64,000 nucleotides of DNA from Rhodothermales bacterium. Its GTDB lineage: Bacteria; Bacteroidota; Rhodothermia; Rhodothermales; VXPQ01. Below the pieces are notes generated by a model that did not search any database, was not told where the DNA came from, and saw nothing but the letters and a program-made list of their open reading frames with translations. Numbering within the stretch: position 1 is the stretch's first letter; every line of letters starts with the position of its first letter. Made by a program: the position numbers and the translations under genes. This document shows positions 10,302-48,405 of this stretch, one piece after another. The DNA is taken from NCBI GenBank assembly GCA_951812335.1, contig OX638293.1, positions 1,286,731 to 1,350,730 on the forward strand, in the 5' to 3' direction.

Positions 10302-10490
10302 ATGAGGACTCTTTCATTAGAAGAAATGCAGCATCTGGGCGGCGTGTCGCGTTGCGGCAAGCTGACATCGTATATCGTGACCGGCTGCGCAGTGGTCGGC
10401 GCGGTGGTCGGGTTCAGCCGGTTGGGTTGGGGAGGTATCGTGGGCACTTCCCGCCGGTATGCCAGGGCCTGCCGGAGATTCTGCAGTTAG
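10302..10490 (+). CDS. Double-glycine leader precursor peptide 1 (bacteriocin-like)
   Basis: A 62-residue peptide with a strong Shine-Dalgarno (GAGGTGG, 5 bases before ATG). The leader MRTLSLEEMQHLGG has the pattern recognised by C39 peptidases: hydrophobic residues at -12, -7 and -4 and a Gly-Gly cleavage site. The predicted mature peptide (48 residues, starting VSRCGK) has four Cys (mature positions 4, 15, 43, 47), a glycine-rich hydrophobic middle (AVVGAVVGFSRLGWGGIVG) and a strongly basic tail (RRYARACRRFCS). Such features are typical of membrane-active class II bacteriocins or glycocins. It is the first gene of a locus with its own peptidase-containing exporter and thioredoxin. No lantibiotic, radical-SAM or YcaO modification enzyme is present. 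Family assignment is inference from leader plus context. Confidence 0.82.
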   Translation: MRTLSLEEMQHLGGVSRCGKLTSYIVTGCAVVGAVVGFSRLGWGGIVGTSRRYARACRRFCS

Positions 10491-10620
10491 CGACCGGGGC
10501 GTATGTGTTCTTGTTGCAAAAGCAAACAAGGCAAACGCGCAGTGTCGAAGCGGAGCAGTTTCTGAGGAATAGTTCGTGAGAAAAGGAAGCCGGGCGTCCG
10601 GTCGCATCAGTGAGGATAGT
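10491..10620 (+). promoter_or_regulatory. Short intergenic spacer with imperfect hairpin after precursor 1
   Basis: The 130 bases between precursor 1 and the glycosyltransferase-like gene contain an imperfect stem, TTGTTGC-AAAA-GCAAACAA (about 10513-10530), which could attenuate read-through from the precursor. There is no T-run, so termination efficiency is uncertain. Confidence 0.3.
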
Positions 10621-11478
10621 ATGGATCCGCAACGTGTCAGGCGGGCATTCGCTCGCGCCATGGAAGAACCGTCGGGAGAAAGGGTGTGTGTGGCGGCGCT
10701 GCTGAATCATCACGGCGTCGATAGCGATGGAATCCATGTATGCGGCGAATCCATGCTGGACCTGTACGAGGCGCTTTCGGACTCGGTGGATTCCGGAACG
10801 TGGCGCGGGTGGATCGACGACGGCATACCGACCTCGGAAAGCGCTGTCCGGGAAGAGGTGGCGCGTTATGGGGCGGACACTGCAGCGTTTCCCGATAAGC
10901 GCGGCGGGATATCGGCGATCGGTATTCCGACCCGTAATCGTGCGGGAAGCGTGCTTGCAGCGCTTCGGTCCTATCATACGAATGCGTCCATGCACGGGCG
11001 TCGTGTACGTTTCGTTGTTGCGGACAGCTCGTCCGCACCGGATCGGGAGCGGCTCGCATCTGCTTTGGATGTCTTGCGAAAAGATATCGATATCGAGGTG
11101 GAGCATCTCGACGAGGCTTGGCGGGCGAACCCGATACGCACGCTGGCGGACGAAACCGATTGTAGCCCCGACGTATTGCGTTTCGCACTCTACGGGTGCG
11201 AAACGTGCGGTACGAATTACGGGGCGAATCGGAATGCGCTCCTGCTGGCTACTGCGGGCGAGCTTTCCGTGCATGTCGATGACGATACGACCCTTCCTCT
11301 GTTCGAGGCGCCGGATACCCTGTCCGGCATAGCCTTTTCCTCGCAACCCGCTCCCAACGAGTACTGGTTCGGCGCTTGCGGTTGGGGGCCGACGGCGGCG
11401 AGCTTTATCGAAGTGCACGAAAGGCTTCCTGGGCGTCCGGTTGCGCGGCTGCCGGAGGAATCCGGTCGGGGCTTTTAG
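10621..11478 (+). CDS. GT2-type glycosyltransferase-like protein, short C-terminus
   Basis: 285 residues from an ATG with GAGG 5 bases upstream; an in-frame GTG at 10576 is a weaker alternative. Residues ~97-225 have the GT-A nucleotide-binding signature of family 2 glycosyltransferases: IGIPTRNRAG, FVVADSSSAPDR, the donor-helix segment YGANRNALLLATAG, and an acidic metal-binding motif VHVDDDTTLP (D-x-D). Only ~60 residues follow the D-x-D, fewer than most GT-A enzymes need for the acceptor site, so the protein may be truncated or the acceptor domain minimal. The N-terminal ~95 residues are unrecognised. It sits between two GG-leader peptides, as the glycosyltransferase does in glycocin clusters, so glycosylation of one or both precursors is the natural hypothesis. 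Confidence 0.68.
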   Translation: MDPQRVRRAFARAMEEPSGERVCVAALLNHHGVDSDGIHVCGESMLDLYEALSDSVDSGTWRGWIDDGIPTSESAVREEVARYGADTAAFPDKRGGISAIGIPTRNRAGSVLAALRSYHTNASMHGRRVRFVVADSSSAPDRERLASALDVLRKDIDIEVEHLDEAWRANPIRTLADETDCSPDVLRFALYGCETCGTNYGANRNALLLATAGELSVHVDDDTTLPLFEAPDTLSGIAFSSQPAPNEYWFGACGWGPTAASFIEVHERLPGRPVARLPEESGRGF

Positions 11479-11529
11479 ACGCTGCGCGGGTCGTTGCTAT
11501 TTCAAAATTCTTTTAACAAGGTTAAAGCC

Positions 11530-11703
11530 ATGAAAACTCTTGATGCTATCCGAATGGCCGCCATATCCGGCGGCATCGGGATCCCGTGCGACGGGAAATC
11601 CCCGCGATACCTTCTGGCCTGGTTTATATGCACGAGTACCGGCCCATTCAATCCAATGGGATTGGCAGGGAACGGCCTGTGCTATGCCCTCTGCGGAAGT
11701 TGA
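11530..11703 (+). CDS. Double-glycine leader precursor peptide 2 (bacteriocin-like)
   Basis: A 57-residue peptide whose leader MKTLDAIRMAAISGG ends in Gly-Gly. AAGG lies about 10 bases before the ATG at 11530; an in-frame upstream ATG at 11494 would extend the leader beyond the usual length. The predicted mature peptide (42 residues, starting IGIPCDGK) has four Cys at mature positions 5, 19, 36 and 40. It ends CYALCGS, so like precursor 1 it closes with a Cys-x3-Cys pair next to a terminal Ser. The middle is hydrophobic and aromatic (YLLAWFICTSTGPFNPMG). With precursor 1 it could form a two-peptide bacteriocin, or they may be independent products of one exporter. Confidence 0.82.
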   Translation: MKTLDAIRMAAISGGIGIPCDGKSPRYLLAWFICTSTGPFNPMGLAGNGLCYALCGS

Positions 11704-11711
11704 CGGGCGGT

Positions 11712-11740
11712 GGGGGCGGATACCGAATGTATCCGCCCCC
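11712..11740 (+). terminator. Perfect 12-bp stem-loop after precursor 2 (attenuator/terminator)
   Basis: GGGGGCGGATAC, loop CGAAT, GTATCCGCCCCC: a perfect 12-bp stem 8 bases after the precursor 2 stop codon, with a T-rich tract (TCTTTTCCCCTTTTAC) starting about 14 bases further on. Placed between the precursors and the transporter genes, it could act as a partial terminator that favours precursor mRNA, or as a 3' stabiliser. Confidence 0.75.
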
Positions 11741-11805
11741 GAATCCCTGATGGTCTTTTCCCCTTTTACAAATAGGTCCCACGAGATACAGGAAAGGAAT
11801 CTGCA

Positions 11806-12480
11806 ATGACATTCGGAAACGATACGGCGCGTGCTGCGCTACCTTCCAGCGGGTGGGCTTTGCCCGCCGACAGTACGGCGAAAAAAAGCCCTGACAAATG
11901 GTTGTTCTGGTTGCTTCCGTTCTGCTACGCGGTGCTGTACGCTATGATCAATTGGATAAGCGACGAATACGTGCAGGCGCCGCCAGCCGAAACGGGTATT
12001 CCGCAACTTCCTCGGGCAAGCGGATCGCTCCGCTGGATAGGGTATGCGTTTACGCCGCTGTACGTGTTCATGAAGATCGGTTTTACGACGGTGTGCCTTG
12101 CCCTGGGCGCTGCCGTTATAACATGGAACGTGCGTTTTTCCAGTCTTTTCCATGCTGCCTCCCTGGCCGAGGTCGTATGGATTGCAGCCGCGCTTACACA
12201 TCTTGCCTGGGCGCTCGTTTTTCCGGATACAAGCACGTTTTTTTATCCGCTTTCCGCCGTGAATCTCGTGGAAATCGACCAGGGCAATATGTGGGCTGTG
12301 TATCTCTTGCGAACCCTGAACCTGTTTGAGGTTGCGTACGCAGCGGCGCTGGTGTACGCGATTCGCCTCGTTACCGACAGACCCCCGCATAACGTCACGC
12401 TGCTGGTTGTGGTCTCCTATGGCGGCGGCACGGCGCTCCTTGTCGCCGGATTCACGTTTTTCCTTCTTTCCGTTTTTTGA
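11806..12480 (+). CDS. Five-helix membrane protein of the peptide locus, function unknown
   Basis: 224 residues with a good Shine-Dalgarno (AGGAAAGGAA) and about five predicted transmembrane helices (around residues 32-50, 82-104, 116-136, 165-187, 198-222). I do not recognise the family with certainty; the arrangement is reminiscent of Yip1-like polytopic proteins. Its place between the precursor genes and the thioredoxin/exporter pair, ending 12 bases before the thioredoxin gene, makes it part of the operon. The likely roles are immunity (many bacteriocin immunity proteins are small polytopic membrane proteins) or export accessory. No catalytic motif is visible. Confidence 0.6.
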   Translation: MTFGNDTARAALPSSGWALPADSTAKKSPDKWLFWLLPFCYAVLYAMINWISDEYVQAPPAETGIPQLPRASGSLRWIGYAFTPLYVFMKIGFTTVCLALGAAVITWNVRFSSLFHAASLAEVVWIAAALTHLAWALVFPDTSTFFYPLSAVNLVEIDQGNMWAVYLLRTLNLFEVAYAAALVYAIRLVTDRPPHNVTLLVVVSYGGGTALLVAGFTFFLLSVF

Positions 12481-12492
12481 GGGTAGTGCGCG

Positions 12493-13020
12493 ATGAAGAA
12501 GATCGGAGCCGTTTTGGCTATAGCGGCGATGCTCGGCGTTGTGGCGTGGCTTGGAGTGCAGGCCCGCGATATAAGGAACGAACGTCTCGAAGCAGCAGAA
12601 CGTCGCCTCCAGCTTCCGGAAGTGTATCTCGTGAATCTGCAAGGGGTGCTTGTACCCTTGCGCTCCGTCGGGGGGCAAAGCGTCGTGCTCGTATTCTTTA
12701 CGACCACCTGCGAGTACTGCCGTGCGGAATTGCACGCGTTCCGCGAAAAGGCGGCGCTTCTGAAAGGACATGACGTGTTTTTCGTGGCTTGGGAGGAGCG
12801 CAACGCGGTAGGGGGGTTTGCCCGGGAAACAGGAATCGACGCGGTGCCCTGGTTCAACGTGCTCCGGGATACGGCCTCGGTGCTTGGCGAAGAACTGGGC
12901 ATCGATGTGGTGCCGACAACACTCGTATACGGTCCGGATGGGCGCCTGCGCAAGGCGTTCGAGGGTCTTGCGGCGGTCGGGAAAATTGCGGAAGCCGCTG
13001 CGGGGGAAGACAGGCCATGA
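12493..13020 (+). CDS. Membrane-anchored thioredoxin-fold protein (TlpA/BdbA-like)
   Basis: 175 residues: one N-terminal anchor helix (IGAVLAIAAMLGVVAWLGV), then a periplasmic thioredoxin/redoxin domain with VVLVFFTTTCEYC (CEYC active site, Cys73 and Cys76) and the cis-proline region IDVVPTTLVYG. In a locus whose two precursors each carry four Cys, it is well placed to form or isomerise their disulfides after export, as BdbA does for sublancin. Its stop overlaps the exporter start (ATGA at 13017-13020), so the two are translationally coupled. Confidence 0.85.
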   Translation: MKKIGAVLAIAAMLGVVAWLGVQARDIRNERLEAAERRLQLPEVYLVNLQGVLVPLRSVGGQSVVLVFFTTTCEYCRAELHAFREKAALLKGHDVFFVAWEERNAVGGFARETGIDAVPWFNVLRDTASVLGEELGIDVVPTTLVYGPDGRLRKAFEGLAAVGKIAEAAAGEDRP

Positions 13021-15179
13021 TTCGGAGCGACAACCTCCGCAGAGAAACGATAAAGCGGGTGACAAAGTCGATCGTCCGGCAACTCGACCAGTCCGATTGC
13101 GGGGTGGCTTGCCTTGCCTGGATCGTCCGTTTTTTCGGAGGCGAGGAAACCATGGAGAGGCTGCGTAGCCTCAGCGGCACCATGTCGCAGGGCGCCACCC
13201 TACTGGGTCTGCACCAGGCGGCGGGTAAAATCGGTCTTAGGTCGGAGCCCTACGAGGCGGGGATGGACGACCTTGCCGCGCTGGAGGCGCCGGCGGTGCT
13301 GCATGTAGTGCTGAACGGTGTTCGCCAGCATTACGTGATTCTCTTCGGGTGTTTCGGGGATGGCTTTCTGATTGGCGACCCGGAGGCTGGTCTTGTCTGG
13401 TATGACGCCGGGGAACTCGAAAAAATATGGGAGAGCAGAGCGCTCCTGCTGTTGCGTCCGGGCAACGGATTCGTGACTCGAAAGCGCCGGGCATCGGCCA
13501 AGCGGAAATGGTTGCGGGACGCTATCCGGGAAGACATGCGTCCCCTTGCTCTGTCGGTTGCGCTTGGCGGTCTTGTGTCTGTATTCGGTCTCGCGATAGC
13601 CTTCTTTTCCAAGACGCTCATCGACGACATACTCCCGCAACGGAACGTGGAGCAGCTTGCGGCCGGGCTGGCGCTTCTTTTCCTGGTGCTGACGGCGCAG
13701 GCGGGTATGGGCATCGTCCGGCAATTGCTTCTTCTGGGGCAGGCTCGCGCGTTCAATAACCGTATCACGAGGCGATTTCTCGACGATTTGCTTCGTCTTC
13801 CCTACACCTTTTTCAGTTCTCGGAAGACGGGAGACCTGATTGCCCGCCTGAACGACACCGAACGGCTTCAACAAACCGTAACGCATGTGCTGGGCGGCGT
13901 AGTCATCGAGGCGCTGGTCCTCGTTGCAGGGATGGCATTCATCTTTGCCCACAGCCCGGAGATTGCCGGAGCGGTAGCTCTTGCGCTCCTGTTTTTCATT
14001 CTGGTGTCCCGGCATTTTCACCGGCCTATCGCGAAGGGGCAGCAGCGCATCATGACGGCGCACTCGTTGAACAAGAGCGGGTATGTCGAAGCCATCCGGG
14101 GTATCGAGGCGATCAAGTCGGCCAATGCCGAATCGGTGTTTACCCGGCTGATGCGCGATACGTACACCCACCTGCAGGAAGAAATTTTCCGCTTGGGCCG
14201 GGTTGCCGTACGGTTCGGCGGTGTGCTGGCGATAGCCGGCGCCCTGATTGTTACTGGCGTACTTGCGTGGGCATCGCTGCTTGTGCTCGGCGACGCCATG
14301 GGCATGGGAGCGATGGTCGCCATCCTGCAAATGATCGGGATGATCGTACCGAGCGCCCAGGCACTGGCCACGGCGAACGTGGATTTTCAGGAGGCTAAGG
14401 TGGCATTCGACCGGATCTATCAGTTTACCTCGCTCAGTCCCGAATACGACATTGCGGAAGAGGCCGAAAAGAGTCCTGTCGATTTTGTACGCCGTCTTGA
14501 GGCGCGCCGCGTTACCTTCAGCTACCCCGGTCAGCTGACCTTGCTCGGCGATGTTTCGTTTACCTGCCATTCCGGGGAGCTCGTGTTGATTGTCGGGAGC
14601 ACGGGATCCGGCAAATCTTCGCTATTGCGCATGTTGCAGCGCCTTGCCGTACCCGAATCGGGAGAGGTGCTGGTTAACGGGTGCGACTGGAACGAATTTT
14701 CCGTTACCGGATGGCGGGATATTCTTGGTGTCGTGCCTCAGAATGTCCGGATATTCAGCGGTACGCTGGTCGACAATATCCGGCTGGGTCTTGCGCTCGA
14801 TCCGAAGGAAGCCATACGGAAATGCGAGGAGCTCGGACTTTCCGATTTTTTCGAGATGTTGCCCGGTGGGTACCTGACCCTTGTGGGAGAAGGGGGCGCT
14901 GCGCTTTCCGGCGGACAGCAGCAGCTGGTAGGTATGGCGCGGGCGCTGGTGCGCGATTCGCAAGTGCTCCTTCTCGACGAGCCTACTTCCGCCATGGACA
15001 GCACTACGGCGCAGCAGGCAATGGATGTGCTGGATCGCTATCGAAAGGACTGCATTGCGATCGTGGCTTCGCATTCGGCTGCGTTCCTGCCTCGGGCAGA
15101 TCGCGTATATCGCATCGAGCAGGGGGTATTCCGTCCGGATTTCGCGCCGCTTGACCGGTTCCGGCCGGCCGGGAGCTGA
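13017..15179 (+). CDS. Peptidase-containing ABC exporter (C39 bacteriocin-processing transporter)
   Basis: 720 residues with the full PCAT layout. (1) An N-terminal C39 peptidase: QLDQSDCGVACLAW with catalytic Cys28, His105 in QHYVILFG, Asp near 121 in IGDPEAG. (2) A six-helix type-I ABC membrane domain, residues ~165-450. (3) A nucleotide-binding domain with Walker A GSTGSGKSS (~526), signature LSGGQQQ (~630) and Walker B LLLDEPTSAMD (~652). Such proteins cleave Gly-Gly leaders and export the mature peptide with ATP. The start at 13017 is set by the ATGA overlap with the thioredoxin gene. No HlyD-type adaptor is in the window. This gene makes the assignment of the two small upstream ORFs as exported peptides strong. 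Confidence 0.95.
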   Translation: MIRSDNLRRETIKRVTKSIVRQLDQSDCGVACLAWIVRFFGGEETMERLRSLSGTMSQGATLLGLHQAAGKIGLRSEPYEAGMDDLAALEAPAVLHVVLNGVRQHYVILFGCFGDGFLIGDPEAGLVWYDAGELEKIWESRALLLLRPGNGFVTRKRRASAKRKWLRDAIREDMRPLALSVALGGLVSVFGLAIAFFSKTLIDDILPQRNVEQLAAGLALLFLVLTAQAGMGIVRQLLLLGQARAFNNRITRRFLDDLLRLPYTFFSSRKTGDLIARLNDTERLQQTVTHVLGGVVIEALVLVAGMAFIFAHSPEIAGAVALALLFFILVSRHFHRPIAKGQQRIMTAHSLNKSGYVEAIRGIEAIKSANAESVFTRLMRDTYTHLQEEIFRLGRVAVRFGGVLAIAGALIVTGVLAWASLLVLGDAMGMGAMVAILQMIGMIVPSAQALATANVDFQEAKVAFDRIYQFTSLSPEYDIAEEAEKSPVDFVRRLEARRVTFSYPGQLTLLGDVSFTCHSGELVLIVGSTGSGKSSLLRMLQRLAVPESGEVLVNGCDWNEFSVTGWRDILGVVPQNVRIFSGTLVDNIRLGLALDPKEAIRKCEELGLSDFFEMLPGGYLTLVGEGGAALSGGQQQLVGMARALVRDSQVLLLDEPTSAMDSTTAQQAMDVLDRYRKDCIAIVASHSAAFLPRADRVYRIEQGVFRPDFAPLDRFRPAGS

Positions 15180-17255: not shown

Positions 17256-17460
17256 GGATGCTCTGATTAAATCCGCAAAGATTCAGAGGCTGAAAGGGGC
17301 GTGCTGGCAAGGAATGACGAAGCAATGTGGTAGGCCCCACATAATGAGGAATGACGCGGTCAGCGCGTCTCTGTCTGCCTCCCGAAGGGCGCTTCACGGC
17401 CGAGACGACCCGAATCCGCCGTGTTTTTCGCTGATTCCGACGATGCAAGCATACCATTAT
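17256..17460 (+). repeat. 254-bp TIR repeat, copy a (right end missing)
   Basis: Starts GGATGCTCTGATTAA and follows the left and central parts of the repeat (GCTGGCAAGGAATGACGAAG, then CCCCACATAATGAGGAATGA). The right end is replaced by unrelated sequence just before copy b begins. Confidence 0.8.
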
Positions 17461-17714
17461 GGATACTCTGATTAAGTCCGCAAAGCTCAGAGGCTTGCGA
17501 GGGGCGGGCTGGCAAGGAGTGACGAAGCAGTGTGGCAGGCCCCACACAATGAGGAATGACGCGGCCAGCGTTCTTCTCGCAGCCTCCCGGAGGGCGCGTC
17601 ACGTCTGCGATGCCCCGAATTCGCAGTGCTTCCTCTGATTCCGACGGTGGAATCATGACAACCTGTACTTGCGAACGTGACGCGCTGAGCGAAGCGGTTT
17701 TGGTCAGAGTATCC
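17461..17714 (+). repeat. 254-bp TIR repeat, copy b (full length)
   Basis: Full-length copy of exactly 254 bases. The left terminus is GGATACTCTGATTAAG and the right terminus TTTTGGTCAGAGTATCC, which are inverted repeats of each other with a few mismatches. The centre contains the imperfect palindrome TGTGGCAGGCCCCACACA. There is no transposase gene, so it behaves like a non-autonomous miniature element. Confidence 0.85.
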
Positions 17715-17771
17715 ATAGTCTTTACGCGTGAAAGTGAAGCGCTGAGCAAAGTGGTTTTGATCAGAGCATCC
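17715..17771 (+). repeat. 254-bp TIR repeat, copy c (right end only)
   Basis: Only the terminal ~57 bases are present (GTGAAAGTGAAGCGCTGAG, then GTGGTTTTGATCAGAGCATC), directly abutting copy b. Confidence 0.7.
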
Positions 17772-17789
17772 CATAATACACCGGTTCGA

Positions 17790-17939
17790 CCAGTGCGCCC
17801 CTCGCAGTCTCCCGAAGGGCGCGTCACGCCCGCACTGCTCCGAATCCGCAGTGTTTTTTGCATATTTCGACGATGGAGTCATAATGTCTGTATTTGTGAA
17901 CGTGACGCGCTGATCGAGGCGGTTTTGATCGGAGTATCC
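17790..17939 (+). repeat. 254-bp TIR repeat, copy d (right half)
   Basis: The right ~150 bases of the repeat, from CTCGCAGTCTCCCGAAGGGC to the terminus TTTTGATCGGAGTATCC. Confidence 0.75.
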
Positions 17940-18192
17940 TTTACATTCTTGTATATTTCGCCTTCCGGTCCCCCAATCGAGATACCGTGCAATACCTCGC
18001 AGATATTGTACATATTTTGCACACATTTTTAGTAAAAATTGTGCCAAAAAGGTGTAAAAAATATACAAAAAAGGTATAAAAAATACTCACTATCGTTCGA
18101 TTGCGCATGCCCGGACCGACGCATTCGCCGGACGATACGGTATCCAGTCGCGTATTGCGCCCTCCGTTTAGACCCCTTCATGCCCGGCTATC

Positions 18193-18327
18193 CCAGCCTC
18201 CGAAGGGCGCTTCACATCCGCGATGCCGGAAACCTCAGCGTTTCCTTAAATTCCGACGATGGAATCATGACATTCTTTACGCACGAACGTGAAGCGCTGA
18301 ACGAAGCGGCTTTGATCAGAGTACCCT
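18193..18327 (+). repeat. 254-bp TIR repeat, copy e, overlapping the parvulin gene start
   Basis: The right ~135 bases (AGCCTCCGAAGGGCGCTTCA to TTTGATCAGAGTACCC). The first ~20 codons of the downstream parvulin lipoprotein, including its ATG at 18267, lie inside this copy. Confidence 0.78.
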
Positions 18328-19697
18328 TATATATCTGCGTTTTCGCTGCGATCCTGCTGTCCGCCTGCGGCCGGACACCGGAAAGCGAGCCTGTCGCCGT
18401 CGTGGCGGGCAAAACGATCGGCGCCGAGGAATACCGGACGCGCTACGTGGATTTCCTGCTCGACAGCGGCTTGCCGGACGAGGCTGCCCGCCGCGCCGCC
18501 TACCTGGAACGACTGATCACCATGAAACTCATGGCCCGCGATGCGCTCGAAAGCGGCCTTGCGGAAGAGCCGGCCTACCTGTTCGCAGAGGAACGCATGC
18601 GCCAAAAGCTTCTCATAGACGCCTATGTGCACCGGGCCGTGTACGACACGATTACGGTTTCGGAGGAGGACCTCCAGGACATGTTCGTCCGGGTCAACAC
18701 GACCGTCACGGCCCGCCACCTGTACGCCCCCACCCGCGAGGCTGCCGATACGCTCTACGAACGGCTCCGGCGCGGCGCCTCGTTCGAGGAACTGGCGAAA
18801 GAAGCGTTCGCCGACACGGCCCTGGCCCGCAGCGGCGGACATCTCGGCTCCTTCGGTTTCGACGAGATGGATCCCGCCTTCGAGGACGTCGCGTTCGCCC
18901 TTGCGCCGGGCGCGGTAAGCCGGCCCGTCCGCACCGCCCAGGGCTATTCGATCGTGCAGGTGGAGGACCGCTTCACGAAGCCCATCCTGACCGAAACCGA
19001 ATTTGCGGCGCAAAAGAACAAGATGGAATCGTATGTCCTCGACCGGAAACGGCGCCGGGCCCGCACGGCGCTCTCCATGCGGCTCCGCGAGGAGGCGGCC
19101 CTGTCGTATCATGCCCCAGCGTTCGAACGCCTGCTGGCGCAGGTTACCGGGGAAGCTGCAATGCCGGAAGACGCCTCATCGACCGGGGCGGAAGGGGAGG
19201 ACCCCGCCTGGCTGGACGCCCCGCTTGCGACGTTCGGACCGCCCGAGGACCGCCGGACCTGGACCGTCTCCGAATTCCGGGACCAGGCCCGGTTTACCGA
19301 TCCTCGGCAGCGTGCGCGGGTCCGTACCGCCGAGGAGCTCCGGCGCTTCATCGACGGGCTGATCGTGCAGGAGGCCTTGCTCGAAGTCGCCCGCCTTGCC
19401 CGCGTCGATCGCGCGCCCGAGTTTACCCAGGCCCTGGACCGCGCCATGGAAGACTGGGCCTTCGAGCAGGCCTGGGACCGCCTCGCCCGCGACGTATCCG
19501 TGCCGGAAGATTCCATCCGCGCCTGGTACGAAGCGCATGACGAACCCTCCACGCCGCCGAGCATGATCCAGGCCCGTTTCCACGAAAGCATGATGGACGA
19601 GGCGCTTCGGGAACATGCCCGCGATCTTCGCGAACGATACAATGTCAGGACGTATCCCCAACTTGTATCCGAATTGCATATTTTAAGGCCACCTTGA
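18267..19697 (+). CDS. Parvulin-type peptidyl-prolyl isomerase lipoprotein (SurA/PrsA-like)
   Basis: 476 residues. After an unusually long charged n-region (MTFFTHEREALNEAALIRV) comes a lipoprotein signal (VFAAILLSACG). An N-terminal SurA-like helical region is followed by a PpiC/parvulin domain (about residues 135-240: VTARHLYAPTREAADTLYER, GGHLGSFGFDEMDPAFEDVA, VRTAQGYSIVQVED). A second helical region completes the chaperone. The product would act in the periplasm on outer-membrane or secreted protein folding, consistent with the many TonB and T9SS clients nearby. The start codon and n-region lie in repeat copy e, and the TGA stop lies at the edge of inverted copy f, so both ends of the reading frame seem to have been shaped by repeat insertion. 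Confidence 0.88.
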   Translation: MTFFTHEREALNEAALIRVPLYICVFAAILLSACGRTPESEPVAVVAGKTIGAEEYRTRYVDFLLDSGLPDEAARRAAYLERLITMKLMARDALESGLAEEPAYLFAEERMRQKLLIDAYVHRAVYDTITVSEEDLQDMFVRVNTTVTARHLYAPTREAADTLYERLRRGASFEELAKEAFADTALARSGGHLGSFGFDEMDPAFEDVAFALAPGAVSRPVRTAQGYSIVQVEDRFTKPILTETEFAAQKNKMESYVLDRKRRRARTALSMRLREEAALSYHAPAFERLLAQVTGEAAMPEDASSTGAEGEDPAWLDAPLATFGPPEDRRTWTVSEFRDQARFTDPRQRARVRTAEELRRFIDGLIVQEALLEVARLARVDRAPEFTQALDRAMEDWAFEQAWDRLARDVSVPEDSIRAWYEAHDEPSTPPSMIQARFHESMMDEALREHARDLRERYNVRTYPQLVSELHILRPP

Positions 19698-47428: not shown

Positions 47429-48214
47429 ATGAAGGTCGGCCTGTTTGTGCCCTGTTATATCGACCAGTTCTATCCGCAGGTGGCTGTGGCGACGCTCGAA
47501 CTGCTGGAGCGTCTCGGATGCGAGGTGGCGTATCCCCGCGAGCAGACGTGCTGCGGTCAGCCGATGGCGAATGCCGGGTGTGCGGAGGACGCCGAGGCGA
47601 CGCACCGGCATACGGCGGCCTGCTTCCGGGAATTCGACTATGCGGTGGGACCTTCGGGAAGTTGTGTGTTGCATCTCCGGGAGCATGTCGAACAGACGGC
47701 AACCGTCCGGTATTACGAATTGTGCCAGTTCCTTGTGGACGTGTTGCAGGTGGACCGCCTGGATGCGTCTTTTTCTTGCAAGGTGGGTCTGCATGCCTCC
47801 TGCCATGGGCTCCGGGGGTTGCGTCTGGCAAGTTCGTCGGAGCGCCGCGAGCCGCCGTTCGATCATGTGGCGCATCTTCTGGGCATGATAGACGGGCTGG
47901 AACTGGTTGGCTTAAGTCGCCCGGACGAATGTTGCGGATTCGGAGGGATATTCGCGGTACAGGAAGAAGCGGTTTCGGTCCGGATGGGCGCCGATCGTCT
48001 CGACGACCACTTGCAGCATGGCGTGGAGGTCGTCACAGGGACCGATATGTCCTGTCTGATGCATCTCGACGGGCTCATTCGTCGCCGGGACATGCCGCTT
48101 CGGGTGCTGCATGTGGCCGAGATTCTGAACGGAAGTGCGGAGGCGTCTTGTGGAATACCCCCATCAAAACCACTTCGCTCAGCGCGTCACGTTCGCAAGT
48201 ACAGGACATTATGA
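47429..48214 (+). CDS. lutA: L-lactate oxidation complex Fe-S subunit LutA
   Basis: 261 residues. MKVGLFVPCYIDQFYPQVA is typical of LutA/YkgE. Two cysteine-rich CCG domains are present (QTCCGQPMANAGC near residue 41 and DECCGFGG near 168), which bind an Fe-S cluster in the heterodisulfide-reductase-like superfamily. With LutB and LutC it oxidises L-lactate to pyruvate at the membrane. The natural end is probably near VAEILNG; the last ~20 residues (GIPPSKPLRSARHVRKY) are encoded by the inverted repeat copy h, which also supplies the stop codon. Confidence 0.92.
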   Translation: MKVGLFVPCYIDQFYPQVAVATLELLERLGCEVAYPREQTCCGQPMANAGCAEDAEATHRHTAACFREFDYAVGPSGSCVLHLREHVEQTATVRYYELCQFLVDVLQVDRLDASFSCKVGLHASCHGLRGLRLASSSERREPPFDHVAHLLGMIDGLELVGLSRPDECCGFGGIFAVQEEAVSVRMGADRLDDHLQHGVEVVTGTDMSCLMHLDGLIRRRDMPLRVLHVAEILNGSAEASCGIPPSKPLRSARHVRKYRTL

Positions 48215-48405
48215 TTCCACCGTCGAAATCAGGGAAAGCACTGCGGATTTGCGACAGTGCGGACGTGACGCGCCCTTCGGAAGGCTGCGAGAGGCACGCT
48301 GGCTGCATCATTCCTCATTGTGTGGGGCCTGCCACACTGCTTCGTCATTCCTTGCCAGCCTACCTTTCTCAGCCTCTGAGTTTTGCGGGCTTAATCGGAG
48401 TATCC
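48152..48405 (-). repeat. 254-bp TIR repeat, copy h (full length, inverted)
   Basis: On the minus strand it starts GGATACTCCGATTAAGCCCG and ends TTTTGATGGGGGTATTCC, 254 bases, the same length as copy b. It begins inside the 3' end of lutA and stops four bases before the ATG of lutB, splitting the lut operon. Confidence 0.88.

Follow-up and report, generated by a model that had tools for sequence, protein, structure and literature searches.

A double-glycine peptide export operon of Rhodothermales with a decayed glycosyltransferase gene, and the intact congener enzyme predicted to modify its peptides

The window, a stretch of 64,000 nucleotides from the 2.69 Mb single-contig genome of a Rhodothermales bacterium, holds an operon for the export of small cysteine-containing peptides with Gly-Gly (GG) leaders. 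With moderate confidence, we propose that an enzyme preserved in congeneric genomes glycosylated the cores of such peptides by holding their precursors through two leader-binding modules, and that this step has been lost in the window. The operon is composed of the following features:

10302–10490, forward strand: pepA, a GG-leader precursor of 62 aa (MRTLSLEEMQHLGG, then a core with four Cys)
10624–11478, forward strand: decayed glycosyltransferase (GT) gene, 284 aa from the ATG at 10624 (about 54 aa of the start of a C39-like domain, the nucleotide-binding half of GT-A with the DDD motif kept, then a premature end)
11530–11703, forward strand: pepB, a GG-leader precursor of 57 aa (MKTLDAIRMAAISGG, then a core with four Cys)
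11806–12480, forward strand: membrane protein (P0004) of 224 aa with about five helices
12493–13020, forward strand: membrane-anchored TlpA/ResA-like thioredoxin of 175 aa with a CEYC motif (Pfam AhpC-TSA, E = 2e-10)
13017–15179, forward strand: PCAT, a C39 peptidase and ABC exporter of 720 aa (Pfam C39, ABC_membrane, ABC_tran)
13068–13451, forward strand: C39 peptidase domain of the PCAT, residues 18–145 (Pfam E = 1.4e-26)

These features agree with most of the anatomy described in an earlier note on this DNA. The two short GG-leader ORFs with four Cys each are present and recur in congeners, and Pfam matches and coordinates bear out the five-helix membrane protein, the CEYC thioredoxin and the 720-residue C39 ABC exporter coupled to it by ATGA; the proposed Rhodothermales operon of GG peptides, thioredoxin and C39 exporter is thus supported. 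The PCAT begins inside the stop of the thioredoxin gene (ATGA overlap, 13017–13020), and its C39 domain, fused to the ABC exporter, has the catalytic Gln, Cys, His and Asp all intact. This domain would recognise the leader and cut at the GG, and the ABC part would export the core. The thioredoxin has Pfam AhpC-TSA/redoxin matches and an N-terminal hydrophobic anchor; perhaps with the adjacent membrane protein, it probably forms or reshuffles disulfides. The membrane protein has no match in Pfam, NCBIfam or the PDB, and a paralogue of it occupies the equivalent position in a second cassette of the same genome. A relationship to MauE, DsbB or DoxX was considered for it and rejected, as there was no match and its Cys are not conserved. 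No HlyD or immunity gene was identified in the operon.

Synteny was compared with five other genomes of the genus, all Rhodothermales MAGs. The six-gene order, whose conservation in relatives the earlier note had proposed to look for, recurs at the corresponding site in four of the five: it is complete in G002, G003 and G005, and in G004 the contig ends inside the GT gene. The precursors, the five-TM protein, the thioredoxin and the PCAT are all intact and evolve mostly under purifying selection. In the sixth genome, G001, the cassette site retains its flanks and a 529-bp piece from the 3' end of the exporter gene; the genes that lie between them look like those of an N-6 DNA methylase and a specificity subunit (L073 6912–9830). 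Thus, the site is fixed, and the cassette there has been gained, lost or replaced.

Both small precursor genes hold syntenic places in the congeners and show dN/dS below 1 in most pairs, thus they are real genes and not chance ORFs. The pepA product is 85% identical in G005 and 62–65% identical in G002 and G003, with all four Cys conserved wherever the gene is present. pepB is conserved in G002–G005; two of its Cys are kept everywhere, and Cys 2 and Cys 3 either both occur or are both missing. The complete retention in pepA and the all-or-none pair in pepB indirectly support disulfides in the cores. A third precursor gene, missed by the earlier note, lies between the GT gene and pepB in the congeners and is deleted in the window; it encodes MKTLTLEQMQLAGG-NCKN... 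with two Cys. Similarity to known bacteriocins is below threshold for this middle peptide (MccV and cerein class IIb) and for pepA (Bacteriocin_IIc, E = 0.05 only). Between the close genomes carrying L024 and L025, pepB (12095–12265 in both) has 10 nonsynonymous changes and 1 synonymous change, against about 20:74 for the exporter in the same comparison (P = 9×10−6). In this single genome pair, the pepB core is possibly under diversifying selection, as would be expected for an antagonistic peptide. The peptides of the operon are probably antagonistic and bacteriocin-like.

The GT gene of the window is a remnant. In the congeners the protein has 730–739 aa and consists of a C39-like domain, then a predicted RRE (PqqD-fold), then a predicted GT-A domain with a helical C-terminus, about 735 aa in all. 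The window protein has 300 aa as listed by the ORF program from a GTG at 10576, or 284 aa from the conserved start, the ATG at 10624, which agrees with the congeners and is the likely one. Three deletions, called from one assembly, were measured by DNA alignment against the congener copy L026 (G005, OX638295), the flanks of which are 88% identical:

10780–10786: deletion 1 junction, an in-frame loss of 459 bp that took the second half of the C39-like domain and almost the whole RRE
11460–11466: deletion 2 junction, a loss of 887 bp with its end at the former stop codon, which took the C-terminal catalytic half of the GT
11530–11537: deletion 3 junction, a loss of 266 bp within the ATGAAAA start common to two leaders, which took the middle precursor gene

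The roughly 300 C-terminal residues missing from the window GT include most of the family invariants (GD.G, GLDNR.LLPP, R.ED, a His and a Trp). Because deletion 3 falls within the shared ATGAAAA start, pepB now lies 3' of the upstream region of the middle peptide, the gene of which was apparently lost by recombination between the leader repeats.

Substitutions were assigned to branches using L024 and L025 for polarisation. On the window branch, the remnant has 17 synonymous and 31 nonsynonymous changes, which is not below the neutral expectation (P = 0.10–0.25, depending on the transition bias). On the L026 branch, the GT has 21 synonymous and 18 nonsynonymous changes and is constrained (P = 0.0002–0.0016), the direct comparison of synonymous and nonsynonymous changes between the two branches being not significant (P = 0.13). 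The overall dN/dS of the remnant between the window and L026 is 0.285, which is below 1, and the exporter has 52 synonymous and 22 nonsynonymous changes on the window branch. We read these counts as relaxed constraint after the deletion, with part of the window branch predating it. A residual role of the remnant is possible, because the 284-codon frame is open and deletion 1 is in frame. The deletions and the near-neutral remnant point, as the likeliest reading, to a disulfide-peptide export system that has naturally lost its modification step at the window locus, and not to a working glycocin cluster: a precursor with a GG-type leader and a PCAT are present, but the putative peptide glycosyltransferase of this locus is found at full length only in the congeners. 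The window genome would have lost glycosylation, through two large deletions in the GT gene, and one of three precursor genes, with the peptides, redox proteins and exporter remaining. The earlier note had placed a GT-A-like protein between the small ORFs, and had allowed that it might be a decayed neighbour without synteny. The window copy is indeed decayed, a 300-aa remnant of a protein of about 735 aa, but the gene is syntenic and intact in the congeners; therefore, the GT belonged to the peptide system.

The intact enzyme was modelled from the L026 copy with AF2, and folds were searched with Foldseek against the PDB. The GT-A region is modelled mostly at pLDDT of about 90 or more, and its top PDB matches are glycosyltransferases (GlfT2, mannosyl- and glucosyl-3-phosphoglycerate synthases, AvpGT and GalNAc-T1); these matches and an invariant Asp-rich DDD metal motif identify a predicted GT-A fold. 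The fold that the earlier note had suggested predicting is thus present in the model of the congener protein, but the window copy keeps only the nucleotide-binding half of it. The middle domain, which takes up the roughly 90 residues following the C39-like domain, is modelled at pLDDT 91.5 as a three-stranded sheet followed by helices. All 14 of its top 14 PDB matches are RREs of RiPP enzymes (CteB, TbiB1, TigE, PqqD, TruD, MibB and a cyanobactin-type heterocyclase), the single E-values being weak (0.025 to 0.8). The assignment is by fold comparison only, as no PqqD match was found in Pfam at E ≤ 10, and a profile search that started from this domain and covered PDB and Pfam sequences gave nothing meaningful. 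The N-terminus matches Pfam C39 at E = 1.3e-11 in the congener enzyme and at 1.6e-24 in its paralogue from the second cassette. In the GT-fused C39 domains the catalytic Cys is replaced by Ser or Gly and the catalytic His by Glu or Arg, both residues being intact in the exporters; with these residues lost, the fused domain should bind leaders and not cut them.

In the ancestral operon, kept in the congeners, glycosylation of the cores most likely fell to this one enzyme and preceded export. Two leader-binding modules, an RRE and a dead C39 domain similar to that of the partner exporter, would stand in front of the GT-A domain, which would transfer a sugar to putative acceptor residues in the cores. 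We judge the intact enzyme to be a RiPP peptide-glycosyltransferase of a new variety, with sugar transfer and leader binding as predicted activities. We are evenly divided on the fuller proposal that it is a new peptide glycosyltransferase which recruits precursors by RRE and dead C39 together, so that the leader is read by the enzyme and later by the exporter, and that the window is a natural knock-out of it. The possible glycosylation raised in the earlier note is plausible for the peptides of the congeners but does not make the window a working glycocin system. The earlier note had drawn on sublancin-type clusters for comparison. No SunS-family model was among the NCBIfam matches at E ≤ 1, and no SunS structure was found by profile search or among the 50 fold matches listed. 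No resemblance to SunS can be detected in the sequence of the intact enzyme.

An alignment of 28 members of the GT family takes in Latescibacterota, Cyanobacteria, Ktedonobacter, Planctomycetota and Gammaproteobacteria, among others. Within the class of the window, the family occurs in 13 of 245 genomes (E ≤ 1e-40). Scores mostly fall below the cut-offs of Pfam PF00535 and PF19787. The latter label, DUF6271, was rejected: it is a poor handle for the family, because the window copy is barely over the cut-off, the intact copies are below it, and only 1 of 296 genomes of the phylum was found with it; a literature search on DUF6271 found nothing. In Ktedonobacter, a family GT has as its neighbours a PCAT and an array of tandem precursors whose leader is of mersacidin type (TIGR03898 over cut-off in the one precursor run), and a planctomycete contig has two GT copies after a PCAT and HlyD. 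Fusions of the GT with a carrier-protein domain occur in Oscillatoria, where the context is non-ribosomal, and in another genome from the order to which the window belongs (domain by eye). The occurrence in NRPS-type loci indicates that the family is broader than RiPPs. Among the members examined, the dead-C39 fusion is found only in the genus of the window. A plasmid search returned only the C39 stretch of a Flammeovirga exporter.

The window genome also carries a second cassette:

L005 9227–17136 (G000:C1, about 1504226–1512135): an 807-aa dead-C39/RRE/GT protein, a GG peptide (11833–12060), a five-TM protein, a TlpA-like protein and a C39 exporter, 31–43% identical to the window parts

The C39 domain fused to its GT is 43% identical to the C39 domains of both exporters.

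Several other explanations could account for these observations. The peptides may be unmodified, disulfide-bonded bacteriocins or microcins of class II type, with the GT acting elsewhere even in the congeners, e.g., on a surface glycan. The sub-threshold similarity of the middle peptide to MccV and cerein class IIb, the dispensability of the GT while the rest of the operon stays, and the NRPS contexts of some family members are in keeping with this explanation, which we nevertheless consider unlikely, since the dead C39 and RRE carried by the enzyme and the position of its gene between precursors point to peptide substrates. The window peptides might instead be modified in trans by the intact 807-aa GT of L005, so that loss of the local GT is of little effect. 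That enzyme is complete, and its dead C39 shares 43% identity with the C39 of P0006, but its cassette, at a distance of about 206 kb, has a peptide and an exporter of its own, and the GT regions of L005 and the window locus are only 31–33% identical; modification in trans is quite improbable. It is highly improbable that the cluster is a working glycocin-like one in which the 300-aa window protein is itself the glycosyltransferase. A weak GT2/DUF6271 match, the DDD motif and the open frame are what it retains, against the absence of about 300 C-terminal residues with most family invariants and of nearly all of the RRE, and against near-neutral evolution on the window branch. Thus, glycosylation by the congener enzyme, followed by its loss in the window, is the explanation that we prefer.

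The operon resembles the glycocin clusters (sublancin, glycocin F and thermoglycocin, with SunS, GccA and ThgS) in its precursors with GG-type leaders, PCAT, expected disulfides and, in the congeners, a GT-A enzyme in the cluster. It differs in the dead C39 and RRE of that enzyme, the lack of a SunS-type match, the Gram-negative Rhodothermales host and the decay of the window GT. We do not file the window system as a glycocin, because it has no intact GT and the family has no SunS-type match. As in other RRE-containing RiPP enzymes (PqqD, TbiB1, CteB, LynD), the middle domain of the congener enzyme has a predicted RRE fold, here fused to a glycosyltransferase. RREs fused to PF00535 glycosyltransferases have been noted bioinformatically in a survey (PMC12710340), so that this half of the architecture is known in outline. 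The congener enzyme differs in its additional N-terminal dead C39; a literature search for a C39-like domain with a glycosyltransferase found no report matching this fusion. Protease-inactive C39-like domains are present in exporters of type I secretion, HlyB among them, where they are presumed to bind substrate. The congener domain shares the C39 fold and the loss of catalytic residues, but sits on a biosynthetic enzyme and not on a transporter. GG peptides, a C39 exporter and Cys pairs are also common to the PCAT systems of class II bacteriocins and microcin V, from which the window operon is set apart by its TlpA-like protein and uncharacterised membrane protein and by the lack of an identified HlyD or immunity gene.

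The interest of the locus lies in the congener enzyme and in its natural loss in the window genome. If the proposal is correct, a modifying enzyme would have gained leader specificity by adopting and disarming an exporter-type protease domain alongside an RRE, which would offer a modular route to direct glycosylation to any peptide with a double-glycine leader. The window genome and its congeners would make a natural before-and-after comparison of the contribution of glycosylation. The locus also shows that the decay of a large putative tailoring gene need not release the precursors and the exporter from selection, and that an ORF that reads as a glycosyltransferase in a cluster can be a remnant.

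Some minor observations were made on the family and the genome. In L028–L031 and L069, a phosphopantetheine carrier domain is joined to the GT domain, with an FkbH-like N-terminus by eye, and the Oscillatoria copy adjoins an NRPS. In class-level relatives (L075–L078), RRE-GT genes lie beside short secreted Cys peptides and sulfotransferase-like or beta-propeller-like ORFs (by eye). IMG/VR holds one distant family member, L047, on contig IMGVR_UViG_3300015263_001238. The window genome encodes a third GT of the family, without the C39-like domain (L004 9075–10868; G000:C1, about 795074–796867), and a further C-terminal GT fragment (G000:C1:226813–227043). Interspersed repeats of about 140–240 bp, 75–87% identical and in direct and inverted copies, are found at 17256–18329 and 48155–48405 of the window, and ORFs resembling them occur elsewhere in the genome (L071, L005).
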